A stretch of 52,657 bases of DNA. Origin: a virus. Below the pieces are notes generated by a model that made no database searches, was not told where the DNA came from, and saw nothing but the letters and a program-made list of their open reading frames with translations. The stretch is taken from positions 1-52,657 of IMG/VR virus record IMGVR_UViG_3300033571_024885. One strand, 5' to 3'. Positions within the stretch are counted from its first letter, which is position 1; each line of letters begins with the position of its first letter. Shown piece after piece: positions 3,601 to 42,706 of the stretch. Position numbers and translations under genes: made by a program.

Positions 3601-5177
3601 TGACTCTTGTTATAGGTCCCGTCCCCAACAAGAAAACCTTTGAGGTAAGCGCCATTAGCATGGACCTTACCGTTGACACGCTTTTCCGTGGACTTGAGCT
3701 GCATGCCAGGCTGGAGGTCTCGCGCCTCGATCCGCGTCCCGTCTTCTAAGATGAACGCGTGATACGGAGTGACGGTGTAACTAATTCCGCAATGGAGTTC
3801 AACGCGGACAACTGGCTGATCGGTTCCGGTTACCCTGAAGTTGTCAATTTTTACCCACCGGACACCGTCGAACACTTCAACCTCCCTGCCAACTAATGAC
3901 TCGATCGGGAAATGCCCCTGCCTTGTCATAACCATGGTCCCCGGGATAAGGCAGGGGTTCAATCCGTACCGGTGCATCCTGTGGTGGATGATCCGGTCAT
4001 TCGTGGGTTCGCCGACCTCTTTCGCGAGCGTCCTGATGTAGTTCGTCGCCGCAGTCTTGTCAGATCTATTGTACAACTTCAGGAAATGCTTCTTCTTGCC
4101 TGGGTCATCGAGCAGGTCGGCGTTTGCGCGCGCAATCGCCTCCGGCACATACTGGATCGCGCCTTCGCCACTGCCATGCTGCAGCGTCACTGCATCCAGG
4201 ATCTCCTGGTACGTCGGCTTGTGATGCCAAGTCCGCGTGTGGTTCGCCATGCGAAGCGCCTCACGCTCCGGGTCCACGCTCCAATTACCATCCTCGTCTT
4301 GCTTGTATAGACCAAGCTTCGCGATTGCGGCCTCTTCGTCGTGCTCGCTGAACTGCCTCATACCCGCTGCGCGTCTAATGCTGCCGGCAACGACGGCGCT
4401 CGCAGCCTCGTCAATCAGCAGGCACGCCTCGATCGGCGTCAGCTTCCGCCCGTGGGCCTTCCCGAGCAGCGTCGTGACCCGCTCCAGGGTGGACCGAAGC
4501 TTAATCGGGTTCGACACCCCGCCAAACCCCTTCAGGCGATTTCCAGCCCCCCGCACGTGCGTCAGATCAATGTTCACGAAGACGGGCTCATCCTCTTCGC
4601 CGCCGACCTCGAGCAGCCCCATCGCTATATTGATCAGTCCCTGATAGGCGTCGACCCACCCCTGCCGGGAGTCGCCAACCGTGATGTCGACCGAGGTCGG
4701 ATGAGTAAACTCGATCCCGGTACTCTCCTGCCCGCCATCGCTGTCGGGATCCTCCTTGACGGTCCCCAGCACGAGCTTGTGCTTGATCGGCGGAAGCTTG
4801 CCCACTACGTCCTGCTGGAGCACGGCGCCGGTGCCGGTACCGCACATGGCGAGCTCCATCAGTAGGCCGAACTGGGCCGGCTCATCGATGAAGCTCGACT
4901 GGCAGTTGTAGAAGCCGTAGAAGTTCTCGGGCTGCCGGCTCCAGTCGGTGCCGCTGACCCAAAGGGCCCGGCCACTGGGGAAGGCCTGCTGCTGTAGGGC
5001 AGCCTCCAGGCAGAGTTCGCGCTGCTCTTCGGTGAAGGAGCCGACCTCCGCGATGCCATTCACGGCACGCGTCACGGCCTCAGTGAAGCTCTCCCGGGTG
5101 CCATCGTCTTTGCGACGGCTGTAGCTCCGATAGAAGACAGCAGGAGCACAGGGAGCGGACTCCAGGAAATCTGACAT
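690..5177 (-). CDS. nrdJ: Class II (B12-dependent) ribonucleoside-triphosphate reductase with two inteins
   Basis: Reduces ribonucleotides to deoxyribonucleotides in the cytoplasm to feed phage DNA synthesis. The open frame is 1500 codons from an upstream TTG (5192), or 1495 from the ATG at 5177 preferred here; removing two inteins leaves about 770 residues, the size of monomeric adenosylcobalamin enzymes. In TTG-based numbering, Cys97 (motif FYNCQSS) is the N-terminal redox cysteine, the thiyl-radical motif NP-C-AE is split by the first intein (N412-P413, then C762-A-E764), CNLG follows at 772, and the C-terminal shuttle pair is C1486/C1491. The glycine-rich loop around residue 900 (PAG/SKSLLTGASPG) is split by the second intein. 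It is the last gene of the minus-strand block. Neither start has a convincing ribosome site (GGAAG lies before the TTG). Family call is secure; the exact start is not. Confidence 0.93.
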   Translation of the reverse strand: MSDFLESAPCAPAVFYRSYSRRKDDGTRESFTEAVTRAVNGIAEVGSFTEEQRELCLEAALQQQAFPSGRALWVSGTDWSRQPENFYGFYNCQSSFIDEPAQFGLLMELAMCGTGTGAVLQQDVVGKLPPIKHKLVLGTVKEDPDSDGGQESTGIEFTHPTSVDITVGDSRQGWVDAYQGLINIAMGLLEVGGEEDEPVFVNIDLTHVRGAGNRLKGFGGVSNPIKLRSTLERVTTLLGKAHGRKLTPIEACLLIDEAASAVVAGSIRRAAGMRQFSEHDEEAAIAKLGLYKQDEDGNWSVDPEREALRMANHTRTWHHKPTYQEILDAVTLQHGSGEGAIQYVPEAIARANADLLDDPGKKKHFLKLYNRSDKTAATNYIRTLAKEVGEPTNDRIIHHRMHRYGLNPCLIPGTMVMTRQGHFPIESLVGREVEVFDGVRWVKIDNFRVTGTDQPVVRVELHCGISYTVTPYHAFILEDGTRIEARDLQPGMQLKSTEKRVNGKVHANGAYLKGFLVGDGTYNKSQFTPVCKVYEPKHVCVDRLVESQREIGVKKYVARSGRVTGERFGLSDAGYLLNLGKSLEEDLSPWVSVYKKEFPKEVYNWTRQCQLDFIAGLFDADGTTLDSKNGYGYQIVSISREFLEGLGLLLHDIGIRFRISPPRPARYHDLGHRGGVCLNKESHRLSIGQAGAIKLAGLVEFTRLKDLSDRRCAYNMRYKGLKVSAVTDAGIAPAVYCCTVPTNNSFTLTGGIVSGQCAEILLCDNVCNLGDVHLNRIEPSDQPAQDRAFRAAALQVAGLLHHHFPSERLQYSRENDPIVGVSFTGLFDFFVTAFGESWLQWMMDGRPAKQGRAFVEAERQYLTHWRNIVGDEVRSYCLSQGIRIPNRYTTVQPAGCLDRTALRVFDQGLLYADDLLEPGSGETEVSGLSVRGGISAETGIANQPMELIRVTLKNKRVLRLTPDHRLLLESGEWCRAEDLAPGSRIQHSLGEYRNTSEAALIPVEAFAYTREARRESAGHSLGLLSVGISTPATMSPDLAYFLGALFGNGSMSERCHRIRFSMPAGSAVTIRLREVASKLFGLAGTIRDEERTTEFCLASRQLWDWMHLNGFEKGKSKELERVPLAIRVSSRESVLGFIAGLIDTDGCVRTKGHFSIDMASEAFIRNLQQIAEAVGIGCTVSHNTQGQSLQEEKDMWSLVMSRAATLPESRDFLNKFSEKCRARPLRSAKMTHSSYAPFTVSSVERDPEPDYTYDFSVSGVDDDDSWYFQGAIVSHNSKSLLTGASPGWHPPKAQRFIRRITFRKNDPVALACMDYGYTIVPSQSDKDELGRLLDDPFDPRCSEWLVEIPTEVSWANLPGADTVEINNFSALAQFDFYMQVQRHYTAHNTSATIEFRENEIEPLAHKIHEAIQEGFGYISAALLARFDANATFPRLPFEPIDKATYERLHQEVEGRRRTADFFEALARYDRGELMEAGPAGCDSDKCLLPLAKPQG
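1350..2492 (-). other. Intein 2 in the reductase, with LAGLIDADG endonuclease
   Basis: A 381-residue intein splits the conserved PAG/SKSLLTG loop of the reductase. It starts with Cys (CLDRTALRVF), has a block B LTPDHRLLL, dodecapeptides LAYFLGALFGNGS and LGFIAGLIDTDG, and ends with the standard IVSHN before an extein Ser. All residues needed for splicing are present. The endonuclease motifs keep their acidic residues in the second copy (DTDG), while the first has Asn-Gly, so nuclease activity is uncertain. It is not closely alike in sequence to intein 1, which argues for separate arrival rather than duplication. Confidence 0.92.
2910..3953 (-). other. Intein 1 in the reductase, with LAGLIDADG endonuclease, ending in Gln
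   Basis: A 348-residue intein lies between P413 and C762 of the precursor, directly before the thiyl-radical cysteine. It begins CLIPGTMV (block A), carries TVTPYHAF (block B with its TxxH), two dodecapeptides (KGFLVGDGTYN and IAGLFDADGTT), and ends GGIVSGQ followed by C. The terminal residue is Gln rather than Asn and the residue before it is Gly rather than His. Gln-ending inteins are known, so splicing is plausible but may be slower. The NPC/AE insertion point is a recognised reductase intein site. Confidence 0.92.
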
Positions 5178-11373: not shown

Positions 11374-11446
11374 TGGGGGTCGCGGGGATCGAACCCGCCT
11401 TCGCGGCGTTATAAGCACCGAGCATTCTCCAGATTGCTAGACCCCC
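11374..11446 (-). tRNA. tRNA-Ile, anticodon UAU
   Basis: Folds as a full cloverleaf on the minus strand: acceptor GGGGGTC/GACCCCC, a three-pair D stem (GCA/TGC), anticodon stem CGGTG/CGCCG around loop CTTATAA, five-base variable loop, and T arm GCGGG-TTCGATC-CCCGC. Loop positions 34-36 are TAT, reading AUA isoleucine codons. The discriminator base is A and CCA is not encoded. Bacteria usually read AUA with a lysidine-modified CAU tRNA, so a UAU tRNA is uncommon and would let the phage read this codon without lysidine synthase. It lies between the glycosyltransferase and the small-gene cluster. Confidence 0.93.
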
Positions 11447-38179: not shown

Positions 38180-38872
38180 ATGTCCGAAGTCACAGAACAG
38201 GCTCCACTGTTGCCCAATCTGATCGGGAAGGTCGAGAAGGAGCGGATCGAGACTATCGGGACGGGCAAGTATCAGGCCGCTTACCTGAACTGGGCCCGAA
38301 CCTTCAATATCCTCCGCGAGCACTCGCCCGACTGGCTGGTGGAGTGCGAGCCCGCTCCCGATGGGACTCTTGTCCACCGGGCGCCGGTCGGCGGCTACCT
38401 GATGCTGCGGCTTCGGAATATCCGGACCGGCCTGGTGACGCCCTCGGTGCCACAGGCGGTGATGGACAACCGCAACGCGTCCATCCCCTACGAGAAGATC
38501 ACTAGTCGCGACATCACTGATACGCAGCGCCGTGGTGGCTGCCTGCTACTCGCGCAGCAGACTGGCCTCGCGTCCGAGTTATGGGCAAAGGATCCGCTGG
38601 AGTCCGGCTACTCCCAGAACGGCGACAGCGAGCGAGTCCCCGTTGAGGCGCCGGTGAAGAGTGCCCCTGCTGCCGTGAAGGCAACGGAAGAGGCGTTCCG
38701 CGAGGCGGCGAAGCAGAAGGGACTGAATGATGGCGCCATCAAAACCCTGGTGGAGAAGATCAAGGCCACACAAAAGCAGGACTTTGGCAGCGCAATCAAC
38801 ATGCTGAGCAAGCGTGATTCCGCCTGGGTAGGGGAACAGAATGCCGCTTCTCCAGCCAAGGAGGGAAAGTGA
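38180..38872 (+). CDS. Sak3-like (DUF1071) single-strand annealing protein
   Basis: 230 residues. The N-terminal half follows the Sak3/DUF1071 order: YQAAYLNWARTFNILREHSP, a beta region with GGYLMLRLRN, VPQAVMDNRNASIPYEKIT, then DITDTQRRGGCLLLAQQTGL. Such proteins pair complementary strands in phage recombination; a RecE-like exonuclease (14527), RusA (15573) and SSB (39886) are the matching partners. The C-terminal part is a Pro/Ala linker and a helical domain (EEAFREAAKQKGLNDGAI) likely to bind SSB or DNA. It ends with a strong ribosome site for the next small gene. Confidence 0.78.
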   Translation: MSEVTEQAPLLPNLIGKVEKERIETIGTGKYQAAYLNWARTFNILREHSPDWLVECEPAPDGTLVHRAPVGGYLMLRLRNIRTGLVTPSVPQAVMDNRNASIPYEKITSRDITDTQRRGGCLLLAQQTGLASELWAKDPLESGYSQNGDSERVPVEAPVKSAPAAVKATEEAFREAAKQKGLNDGAIKTLVEKIKATQKQDFGSAINMLSKRDSAWVGEQNAASPAKEGK

Positions 38873-39018
38873 GGGTGGCCGGGTCAAGCATGCCGAACAT
38901 CGGCCCGGTCACAAACACAGATCAGGTCCTTGAGATGATTGACGTCGGCGCTAGGTCGATCGCGCGGTTCTTCAGTGGTGAAATTATCCAGGACTACGTG
39001 TGGCAGGAAGAAAATTGA
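38869..39018 (+). CDS. Small protein, 49 residues, between Sak3-like and sigma genes
   Basis: GTG at 38869 overlaps the preceding stop and has AAGGAGG four bases upstream, the best ribosome site in the window. The product (MRVAGSSMPNIGPVTNTDQ..., ending DYVWQEEN) is acidic and helical. Its end overlaps the sigma gene by 19 bases. No family recognised, but signals and packing support it as a real gene. Confidence 0.6.
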   Translation: MRVAGSSMPNIGPVTNTDQVLEMIDVGARSIARFFSGEIIQDYVWQEEN

Positions 39019-39885: not shown

Positions 39886-40251
39886 ATGGCAACAATCACA
39901 ATCGCAGGCTCGGTCTGTGGTGGCAAGGACGGCGGCGATGCCGTCACGCTGAAGACATTCGACAACGGCAACCAGATCGCGACATTCAGTGTCGCCGACA
40001 CCGAGTACTTCTACACCAAGAAGGACGAGGAGCGCAAGGGTCAGTTCTACCGCGTGGAAGTGATCGGCAAGGCTGCCGAGATCGCTACCGACCGGCTGGT
40101 GAAGGGCTCCAAGGTGGCGGTGTCCGGCCAGTTCGTGGCACGCGACTACAACGGCAGCACCTACTACGACGTCAAGAACGCCAGGGTCACCTACCTGGAT
40201 CCCCGCCCCGAGCAGGGCGCGGATCAACACGACGAGGAAGCCCCCTTCTGA
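39886..40251 (+). CDS. ssb: Single-stranded DNA-binding protein
   Basis: 121 residues with an OB fold: TITIAGSVCGG start, QIATFSVADTEYFYTKKDEE, FYRVEVIGKAAEIATDRLVK and KVAVSGQFVARDYNG. The acidic C-terminal tip DEEAPF corresponds to the DDDIPF tail of bacterial SSB that recruits partner proteins, so it should serve both replication and Sak3-mediated recombination. ATG at 39886 is clear; two genes of unknown function follow. Confidence 0.92.
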   Translation: MATITIAGSVCGGKDGGDAVTLKTFDNGNQIATFSVADTEYFYTKKDEERKGQFYRVEVIGKAAEIATDRLVKGSKVAVSGQFVARDYNGSTYYDVKNARVTYLDPRPEQGADQHDEEAPF

Positions 40252-40625: not shown

Positions 40626-41057
40626 ATGGAGGGCTTCGATTCTTTCTCTCAGTTCGAGGCTATCCCAGGTGCAGTGGGGGCGTTCGTCGACGACTTGCCC
40701 CCGCTCACTCATGCGCAGATCAAGCCGTTTGTGATCGCCATCCTGCTCAAGCGTGGCGGCGTCTCGCCTCACGAGGTCGTCGCCGCAATGAATGCGCACT
40801 GCCGCGATGAGGAAACCAAAGAAGGAGGGTGGGACCCGATCGACGAAGATTGGACCGAAGGCACCCTGCTCGAGAAGATGGTCGACGAGGTTTTTGGCAA
40901 AATGGTCGCCGATGGCGAGCTTGAGTACAGCGAAAAACGTAATACCTGGAAGATATCACCTGGATCTCTTCGTAGCGTGATACAATGGTGCACGTGCATG
41001 GGGGCACGGATCCCCGCACACCTCTTCATGGACCTCGGACTGCAGATACACAGATGA
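40626..41057 (+). CDS. Hypothetical protein, 143 residues
   Basis: Starts [15 protein letters not shown]. The centre has a winged-helix look: [19 protein letters not shown] and an end strand [14 protein letters not shown], so DNA binding is possible. An extended -10 box lies inside its 3' end, and its stop overlaps the dCTP deaminase ATG by three bases. Confidence 0.65.
40978..40986 (+). promoter_or_regulatory. Extended -10 promoter for dCTP deaminase
   Basis: GTGATACAAT inside the upstream gene, 67 bases before the dcd ATG. Confidence 0.5.
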
Positions 41058-42706
41058 TCTTAAACGACAAGCAGATCGAAGAGTTGTGCTACGACGGAAT
41101 GATCGAGCCTTGGAGATGCGGTCTTGCTCGCAAAAGCATTGCCGGACGCGGGATCTTGTCATACGGCCTTGGCTCGTATGGCTATGACATCAGATTGTCG
41201 CCAAAAGAGTTTCGAGTCTTTAAGCGACTGCCCGGGATGATCGTTGACGTCAAGGCATTCAGCGACGTTAACCTAGAGCAAGTGGCATTGCTATACGACA
41301 ATTCAGGAGGACCCGCTGACGGCTCCGCTTATTTCATTCTGCCGGCTCACTCCTATGGGCTCGGTGTCTCTCTTGAGCGGATCAAGATGCCGAAGGATGT
41401 CACGGCGCTGTGCATCGGTAAAAGTACTTACGCCAGGTGCTTCAGTGGGGACACTAAGGTCAAGCTTGTCGACGGAGACTATTCGTTCACCGAGCTGATT
41501 GAGCGAGCGAACGCCGGGGAAAGGCTGTATGGGTTTGGTGTTCTTGATGGCCGCATTGTTATCCAAGAGCTCGTATCGCCTAGGTTTATCGATAATAGCG
41601 CCTTGCTAGAGGTTGCGCTTGACAACGGCGAGTTGATCCGATGCACTCCCGATCACAAGTTTCTTCTTAAGAACGGCGGCGAAGTAGAGGCCCGGCATCT
41701 TGAGTCAGGGGATTCGCTACACGCCATTTACGAGTGGGATGACCACGGCTACCCGGGGGTGTACGATCCCGTCTTTGCAGCAAGGCTCGGGTCCTCTGGC
41801 CGCGACAGAAGAGGAGCCCGCTCTTCTGTCCATCGGATGGTAGCCAGGGACATACTTGGAAAAAGCGAAGGCTTTGACGTTCACCATTTGGACGGCAACA
41901 AGCGCAATAATCACCCATCCAACCTCGAGTGCATCTCCGCATCCGAGCATGCGCGAATCCATAACAGAGAAAGCTTGCGGCACCTGCTAGGCGGCCAAGC
42001 TAGTGCCGAGAAGTTTGCGACCGACCCCGAACATCGCCAGAAGATCTTGAGCATTTTGCACTCTGACGAAAACAAGCAAAAGGCGGCGGAGGCCAGGCGT
42101 CCATATCTGCATTCCAGTGAAAATCACAAGCGGCTTTCGATAGCACGCCAAGCGCGATGGCAGCAAGAGGGAGCAAAGGAGAGACAGTCGCTAGTAGCTA
42201 GAAACGGCGTAGGGGCTTTGCGTCGTCGAGATGACATTACCCATGAGGCCTTGGTAAATGCGCTGCTTGCTACCGGCTCCGTTAGGGGGGCGGCTAGAGT
42301 CCTGGACGTAGATAGATCGGCGTTTCGTCGGTTTCCACACATCCTTCAGCGGTTCAAGGAAGGAAGACTTGCGGAAAATCACAAGGTGAAACAAGTTAGC
42401 CCGGTCCCTGGAAAGCACCCGACCTACTGCTTGACCGCTCCGCGAACCGGCAACTTTGCGCTTTCCGCTGGTGTATTTGTCAAAAACTGTGGTATCATCG
42501 CGAACACTACGCCGATCGAGGCTGGATGGGAGGGTCACATCACTCTCGAGTTCAGTAACTCTTCCGACGCGGATTGTCGGATCTACGCCTACGAAGGAGT
42601 GTGCCAGCTTCTGTTCTTCCGTGGTGAACCATGCCTCACCAGCTACTCCTGCCGCAGTGGCAAGTACCAAAACCAGGAAGACCGCGTAACCCTTCCGAGG
42701 GTTTAA
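41054..42706 (+). CDS. dcd: dCTP deaminase interrupted by an HNH intein
   Basis: Converts dCTP to dUTP, which feeds dTMP synthesis by ThyX. The precursor is 550 residues; removing a 350-residue intein leaves 200, the usual enzyme size. Extein motifs: [13 protein letters not shown] near the start, then [15 protein letters not shown] (ending R128) joined after splicing to [18 protein letters not shown], whose glutamate (E139 of the spliced protein) is the catalytic residue of the family. The frame is open from 40985, but the ATG at 41054, overlapping the preceding stop, gives the normal N-terminus. No separate dUTPase is seen in the window, so the enzyme may be bifunctional; this is inference. 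Confidence 0.92.
41438..42487 (+). other. Intein in dCTP deaminase, with HNH endonuclease
   Basis: Begins [14 protein letters not shown] (block A), has a block [12 protein letters not shown], and ends GVFVKN before an extein Cys. The residue before the terminal Asn is Lys rather than His. The insert carries an HNH nuclease ([20 protein letters not shown] and SEHARIH) and a helix-turn-helix ([18 protein letters not shown]) instead of a LAGLIDADG endonuclease. It splits the active-site region between KSTYAR and CGII. Confidence 0.9.

Follow-up and report, generated by a model that had tools for sequence, protein, structure and literature searches.

Directly after a gene for a single-strand annealing protein of the Sak type, the virus analysed here carries a frame of 49 codons plus a stop (positions 38,869 to 39,018, + strand) that is real, conserved and coding, and that is never found in the open frame of Sak. 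Here, the window is the whole stretch of DNA that was analysed (52,657 nucleotides), and positions refer to it unless another locus is named. The virus is related to phages of cyanobacteria. We consider it likely that the 49 codons are an alternative C-terminus of Sak, reached by -1 programmed frameshifting, and that a free peptide of 49 residues is possibly made as well. The sequence strongly indicates the -1 mechanism, while the occurrence of the slip and its frequency are what we infer from it.

The Sak gene and the layout of the locus

The upstream gene (38,180 to 38,872, + strand) encodes 230 residues in what is taken here as the zero frame. Profile searches matched it to phrog_21418 (1.2e-51), to the Sak-like phrog_8492 (8.8e-6) and to Pfam SSAP_Sak (9.1e-4). 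The score of the last match (19.2) is below the Pfam cut-off of 22.3, and SSAP_Sak was matched by 24 of 24 aligned members of the family at E-values up to 0.1. A Foldseek search with the structural model of the window Sak returned the Sak of phage 80alpha as best hit (8qe9, E-value 2.3e-6), followed weakly by Mgm101 and Rad52 (E-values 0.005-0.02). These profile and model matches identify the product as a single-strand annealing protein of the Sak type with a Rad52-like fold, for which annealing activity is predicted. The 80alpha protein (8qe9, 8pq8) is the best match of the main domain in both fold and sequence, whereas the out-of-frame tail is a feature of the cyanophage branch.

Translation of Sak ends at a TGA (38,870-38,872). 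The tail frame is in -1 relative to Sak and begins with a GTG at 38,869, and its stop overlaps a TTG at 39,015, one of two possible starts (the other is a GTG at 39,000) of a sigma-70-like factor encoded on the same strand up to 39,866 (Pfam Sigma70_r2, 5.2e-12; phrog_351, 1.8e-30). A gene for SSB follows at 39,886-40,251 (+ strand). Farther downstream, at 40,985-42,706, an intein that carries an HNH endonuclease splits a dCTP deaminase gene (Pfam DCD, Intein_splicing and HNH_3).

An AlphaFold2 model of the tail peptide consists of one helix, predicted with a pLDDT of about 90 at tail residues 17-34 (38,917-38,970, + strand), and an extended end. The helix leads into an FF-x-G motif (FFSG, 38,968-38,979, + strand), which was recognized in a motif alignment of the loci described below.

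Conservation of the tail among relatives

Sak homologues were gathered from viral contigs of IMG/VR (the best 80 loci of each search), from genome contigs (three loci) and from the Synechococcus phage isolates S-CBS2, S-CRES1, S-CRES2 and S-CRES3. In all 26 loci of the first list, a sigma gene was located downstream of Sak, and the Sak stop was directly followed by the coding sequence of a short peptide containing F-x-G, in most cases as FF-x-G. By inspection of the three reading frames, this tail peptide was assigned in 64 of the 112 unique Sak loci examined: 47 times in the +1 frame, 16 times in the -1 frame and once in frame 0 behind a TGA. No such peptide was seen in the remaining 48 loci, most of which encode more distant Saks. 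None of the 112 loci encoded an in-frame fusion of Sak and tail; therefore, the intervening stop is kept. Removal of junctions with more than 85% identity left 54 loci (39 in +1, 14 in -1 and one in frame 0), and five later loci stand outside of this cut: L158 (from S-CRES3), L234 and L275 in +1, and L169 and L184 in -1. Contig L005 is identical to the window across 10,690 bases and thus is not independent evidence. The Sak gene of S-CRES2 (L159) is annotated as two genes and has an internal TAG at about position 2403; because of this stop it was left out of the count.

The first-pass annotation had suggested that the frame should be looked for in related phages. It is kept there as a coding frame, and the loss from relatives that was named as the contrary outcome was not seen. 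Among the 54 deduplicated loci, the second F and the G of the motif were present in every one. In both frame classes, the glycine codon has fixed first and second bases and a largely free third base, with the four glycine codons used 23, 14, 11 and 6 times, and TTC and TTT are used alike for the two phenylalanines. Pairwise differences at the first, second and third codon positions amounted to 0.50, 0.39 and 0.69 in the tail frame of the +1 class and to 0.45, 0.35 and 0.67 in that of the -1 class, compared to 0.71, 0.72 and 0.73 (+1) and 0.74, 0.74 and 0.76 (-1) just past the tail stop. Hence, conservation does not extend past the stop codon of the tail. A profile built from the 53 other tails, with the window omitted, recovered the window tail as the best match in a six-frame search of the whole window (E=1.9e-7). 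A profile made of +1 tails only detected several -1 tails at the expected place, including that of the window (7.2e-5), and other -1 tails were weak or undetected.

Some loci form hairpins in this region, many tails extend into a terminator-like hairpin, and the stretch past the Sak stop folds somewhat better than shuffled sequences, all of which would suit an RNA element, terminator or hairpin, in place of a coding frame. We regard this reading as having next to no probability, and it was rejected on the three-base codon periodicity. The free choice between TTC and TTT and among all four glycine third bases also speaks against it, and the motif is kept in loci with no hairpin covering it.

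We found no credible relatives of the tail in Pfam, PHROGs or PDB, and no convincing second copy of it in S-CBS2, the first 40 kb of S-CRES1 and S-CRES3, or the window. The records of S-CBS2, S-CRES1 and S-CRES3 carry no annotation for the conserved tail module.

A separate small ORF was observed in another branch of Saks (L050, L058, L061-L074 and more). It overlaps the end of Sak in a different frame and encodes a conserved protein with the pattern HFQVRLD..LA..L.HY, perhaps a ribbon-helix-helix protein, although this is a guess. In at least some copies, its ATG lies inside the end of Sak.

Slippery heptamers at the -1 loci

In the first set, all 16 -1 loci, or 14 once junctions above 85% identity are removed, displayed a heptamer of the form X_XXY_YYZ in register with Sak, located 3' of the point where the -1 frame opens and 5' of the Sak stop. 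These were A_AAA_AAG, C_CCA_AAG, C_CCT_TTT and, in the window, G_GGA_AAG (38,863-38,869, + strand), which lies directly 5' of the stop. The later loci L169 (C_CCA_AAG) and L184 (A_AAA_AAG) also carry one. Together with the 14 deduplicated loci, heptamers were thus present in 16 of 16 cases versus 2.37 expected under synonymous codon shuffling; related -1 loci are not independent, yet four different heptamers occur at several positions. In the +1 class, by the same shuffling, a heptamer was found in one of 40 loci versus 1.54 expected. C_CCA_AAG, G_GGA_AAG or A_AAA_AAG is used at 14 of the 16 -1 loci, and these are described in one part of PMC4066793 as the three most efficient heptamers in E. 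coli when stimulators are present.

In the window, the -1 frame is open from the heptamer into the tail. A stem-loop of 11 bp with a 16-nt loop (38,875-38,912, + strand) starts five bases past the heptamer and is a candidate stimulator. Its folding energy of -20.5 kcal/mol (z -1.72) is moderately special, as 7 of 200 shuffled sequences reach an equal or better fold. Hairpins comparable to this one and close 3' of the heptamer are weak or absent in several other -1 loci. At L101 and L107, AGGAG or AAGGAG lies eight bases 5' of the heptamer.

Based on this layout, we propose that most ribosomes would terminate at the TGA at 38,870 and release the 230-residue Sak, while a fraction would slip back by one base on G_GGA_AAG. 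This slip may be aided by the stem-loop and perhaps by the purine-rich AAGGAGG (38,858-38,864, + strand), a Shine-Dalgarno match that shares two bases with the heptamer. Continued reading in the -1 frame would then yield a minor fusion of Sak and tail of 279 residues, with the predicted helix leading into FF-x-G. The relatives would reach their tails through other -1 heptamers or, in other branches, through a +1 shift. Some features of the window weaken the frameshift reading: its Sak has an exceptional, non-aromatic end, its place in the Sak tree is unsure (both described below), and the Shine-Dalgarno match overlaps the heptamer and is better suited to initiation at the GTG. Known -1 stimulators are positioned farther from the heptamer than this overlapping match.

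The window contains a single tRNA gene, for isoleucine with anticodon TAT (11,374-11,446, - strand). A frameshift-suppressor tRNA encoded by the phage was also considered and is unsupported by this gene.

Start codons and ribosome sites at the tail

The first-pass annotation had described the 49 codons as a hidden gene with the strongest ribosome site. Its description of the sequence proved exact: the GTG frame exists at 38,869-39,018, AAGGAGG precedes the GTG by four bases (GAAA), and GTGA shares bases with the Sak stop. We chose 56 starts of long ORFs in the window by a greedy rule and scored their matches to TAAGGAGGT at spacings of 3-12. The seven-base match at the tail was the longest of them all, the next longest having six, and 25 of the 56 starts had no match of at least three bases at these spacings. 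As a word, AAGGAGG was not enriched in the window (6 copies versus 6.9 expected).

These features favor a free protein of 49 residues as the only product, made by translational coupling, with ribosomes coming from the Sak stop or newly bound at AAGGAGG starting at the GTG at 38,869. We find this account unlikely, and an independent gene served by its own ribosome site did not hold up as the main reading. When we scanned for ATG, GTG or TTG in the tail frame, from the frame opening (or from position -75) to six codons before the motif, 15 of 39 loci in +1 and 3 of 14 loci in -1 had none in the stretch scanned, and their tails are kept nonetheless. In the +1 class, the tail frame did not exceed a control frame in loci with a start (24 of 39 versus 38 of 39) and only 4 of 39 had a start near the Sak stop; for this class, start codons were rejected as an explanation. 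Across the deduplicated +1 and -1 loci, start and ribosome site were not kept. Moreover, synthesis of a free protein alone would leave the 16 heptamers in 16 -1 loci unexplained, and the shortest tails comprise only 15 codons past the Sak stop.

The -1 class is more favorable to initiation. An ATG, GTG or TTG lies within -12 to +6 of the Sak stop in 6 of 14 loci, and 6 of 14 have a start with at least four Shine-Dalgarno bases, versus 1 of 14 in the control frame; because of this, some initiation is possible in this class. A particular form of the frameshift reading, compatible with it, is that the purine-rich stretch serves both purposes, so that the shift would give the fusion and the GTG with its strong ribosome site may also start a free copy of the tail. 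This dual use is a tentative proposal to which we give somewhat less than an even chance. In its favor, heptamer, AAGGAGG, GTG and stem-loop are all packed into 60 bases of the window. Some insertion sequences likewise yield a fusion and a free product from one such stretch. Against the dual use, no other listed -1 locus joins a heptamer to a seven-base Shine-Dalgarno match at the junction. Since this pairing is confined to the window among the listed -1 loci, conservation does not provide a test of the free product.

Candidate shift sites at the +1 loci

Under the preferred reading, a Sak extended by frameshifting, ribosomes would shift to +1 in the +1 loci, and there the shift site is explained only partly, which counts against this reading. 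In the last 45 nt of Sak, CCC or UUU was present in 31 of 42 +1 loci versus 17.1 expected, with neither codon in 11 loci, whereas the -1 class displayed no such excess (6 versus 7.3 expected). Considering 34 +1 loci, CCC made up 23 of the 36 proline codons in these last 45 nt and 107 of 427 elsewhere in the same genes (p 1e-6, a value that ignores kinship among the loci). In one +1 group, UUU_C was found in 8 of 8 loci, for which the product of background frequencies is 0.003.

The stop itself also differs between the classes. UGA terminates Sak in 36 of 39 +1 loci versus 5 of 14 -1 loci, and it is followed by a pyrimidine in 37 of 39 versus 2 of 14. This bias may reflect an aspartate codon (GAY) that opens the tail, or it may belong to a shift that depends on the stop, of the kind described for antizyme in part of PMC9841425. 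We keep a shift at the UGA itself open, because the GAY codon alone could account for the bias.

The last residue of the short Sak is aromatic (Trp, Tyr or Phe) at 39 of 39 +1 loci and at 13 of 14 -1 loci, and it often lies in an acidic stretch; the window Sak, ending in EGK, has the sole non-aromatic end among these 53. The aromatic ends and the kept stop suggest that the short form is functional in its own right.

The downstream sigma gene

Given the position of the tail before a sigma gene, the first-pass annotation had raised the idea of an anti-sigma or sigma-coupling peptide. A sigma gene is indeed directly downstream in all 54 deduplicated loci and, in the window, the TTG at 39,015 overlaps the tail stop. 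Adjacency in every locus, for this reason, does not separate the hypotheses. An action of the peptide on the sigma factor appears very improbable to us, as the frame of the tail is tied to Sak. In S-CBS2, a terminator-like hairpin and a promoter match (11/12) separate the tail from sigma. At 3933-3970 of this locus (L002), the terminator-like hairpin and the 3' end of the tail share bases with the -35 box of a promoter that is strong and sigma-70-like. A scan of the interval between tail and sigma in the window showed neither a terminator-like hairpin nor a promoter, and the cistrons overlap, so coupling of tail and sigma is possible there. No anti-sigma family of Pfam was matched by the window peptide (up to E 0.1) or by eight relatives (up to E 10), and in PHROGs the tail had only weak, unrelated matches (0.028 and 0.29).

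Comparison with known recoding systems

The heptamers of the -1 loci are of the same class as those of dnaX and of the IS3-family insertion sequences (A_AAA_AAG, G_GGA_AAG), and the window likewise has a 3' stem-loop. In IS3-family elements, ribosomes that shift late in the first frame append a C-terminal part to its product, as we propose for Sak. Our case differs from both in that the gene is a phage annealing protein, the stop of the window abuts the heptamer, the Shine-Dalgarno match overlaps it, and the system is known from sequence.

A minor form of a phage protein with an extended C-terminus, such as we propose for Sak, is known from the tail-assembly chaperone G/GT and from frameshift extensions of capsid or tail proteins (lambda, the Listeria phages PSA, A118 and A500, and the lactococcal 936 phages). 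Those are structural or assembly proteins, whereas Sak is a protein of DNA recombination. For the +1 relatives, there are likenesses to several systems: they often have CCC upstream of the stop, as in the +1 shift of Listeria phage PSA at CCC; UUU_C upstream, as in influenza PA-X, which reportedly shifts to +1 at UCC_UUU_C; and a stop of the form W/Y/F_UGA_Y, as in prfB (CUU_UGA_C) and antizyme (UCC_UGA_U). Unlike these known +1 systems, the relatives have no single conserved site, and their last zero-frame codon (UGG or UAY) re-pairs poorly in +1.

As far as the portions consulted describe, the proven cases of frameshifting in phages concern capsid and tail proteins (PMC5009743, PMC4759559). 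In PMC4759559, which pairs the terms single-strand annealing protein and ribosomal frameshift, the shift in the part consulted is that of a tail protein. A word search of the available text of the paper on 80alpha Sak (PMC5499656) did not return the word frameshift. Our search of the literature, limited to PubMed Central, found no description of frameshifting in a phage annealing protein.

Evolution of the frame direction

In a tree of Sak, the frame of the tail is largely stable within branches: one comprises 11 -1 loci, another the -1 pair of L101 and L107, and another 33 +1 loci. A weakly supported set of eight includes the window, L114 (+1), five further +1 loci and L027 (frame 0); the branch of the window is long, and its placement is unsure. 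The tail of L027 (5741-5798 of that contig) lies in frame 0 right behind the Sak TGA, the sole such case among the loci examined; it may represent readthrough, a contig error or decay. Among Listeria phages, part of PMC5009743 describes that the direction of the frameshift (+1 or -1) varies among relatives.

Based on these findings, we lean towards a broader postulate, of which we are less confident than of the frameshift in the window itself: programmed frameshifting would yield a short and a long form throughout a whole branch of cyanophage-type annealing proteins, and in the course of evolution -1 and +1 shifts would have replaced each other while tail and stop were kept. The long form, as the minor one, would dope the annealing ring with a few FF-x-G tails, and docking or assembly is the role that we infer for them. 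The gene proposed to be recoded in this case encodes a recombination protein, and every locus retains the stop that precedes the tail. Since the direction differs by branch while the tail remains unchanged, these phages would allow the exchange of frameshift sites to be compared in nature. If true, this would be the first phage recombinase controlled by recoding that is known from the literature we searched.
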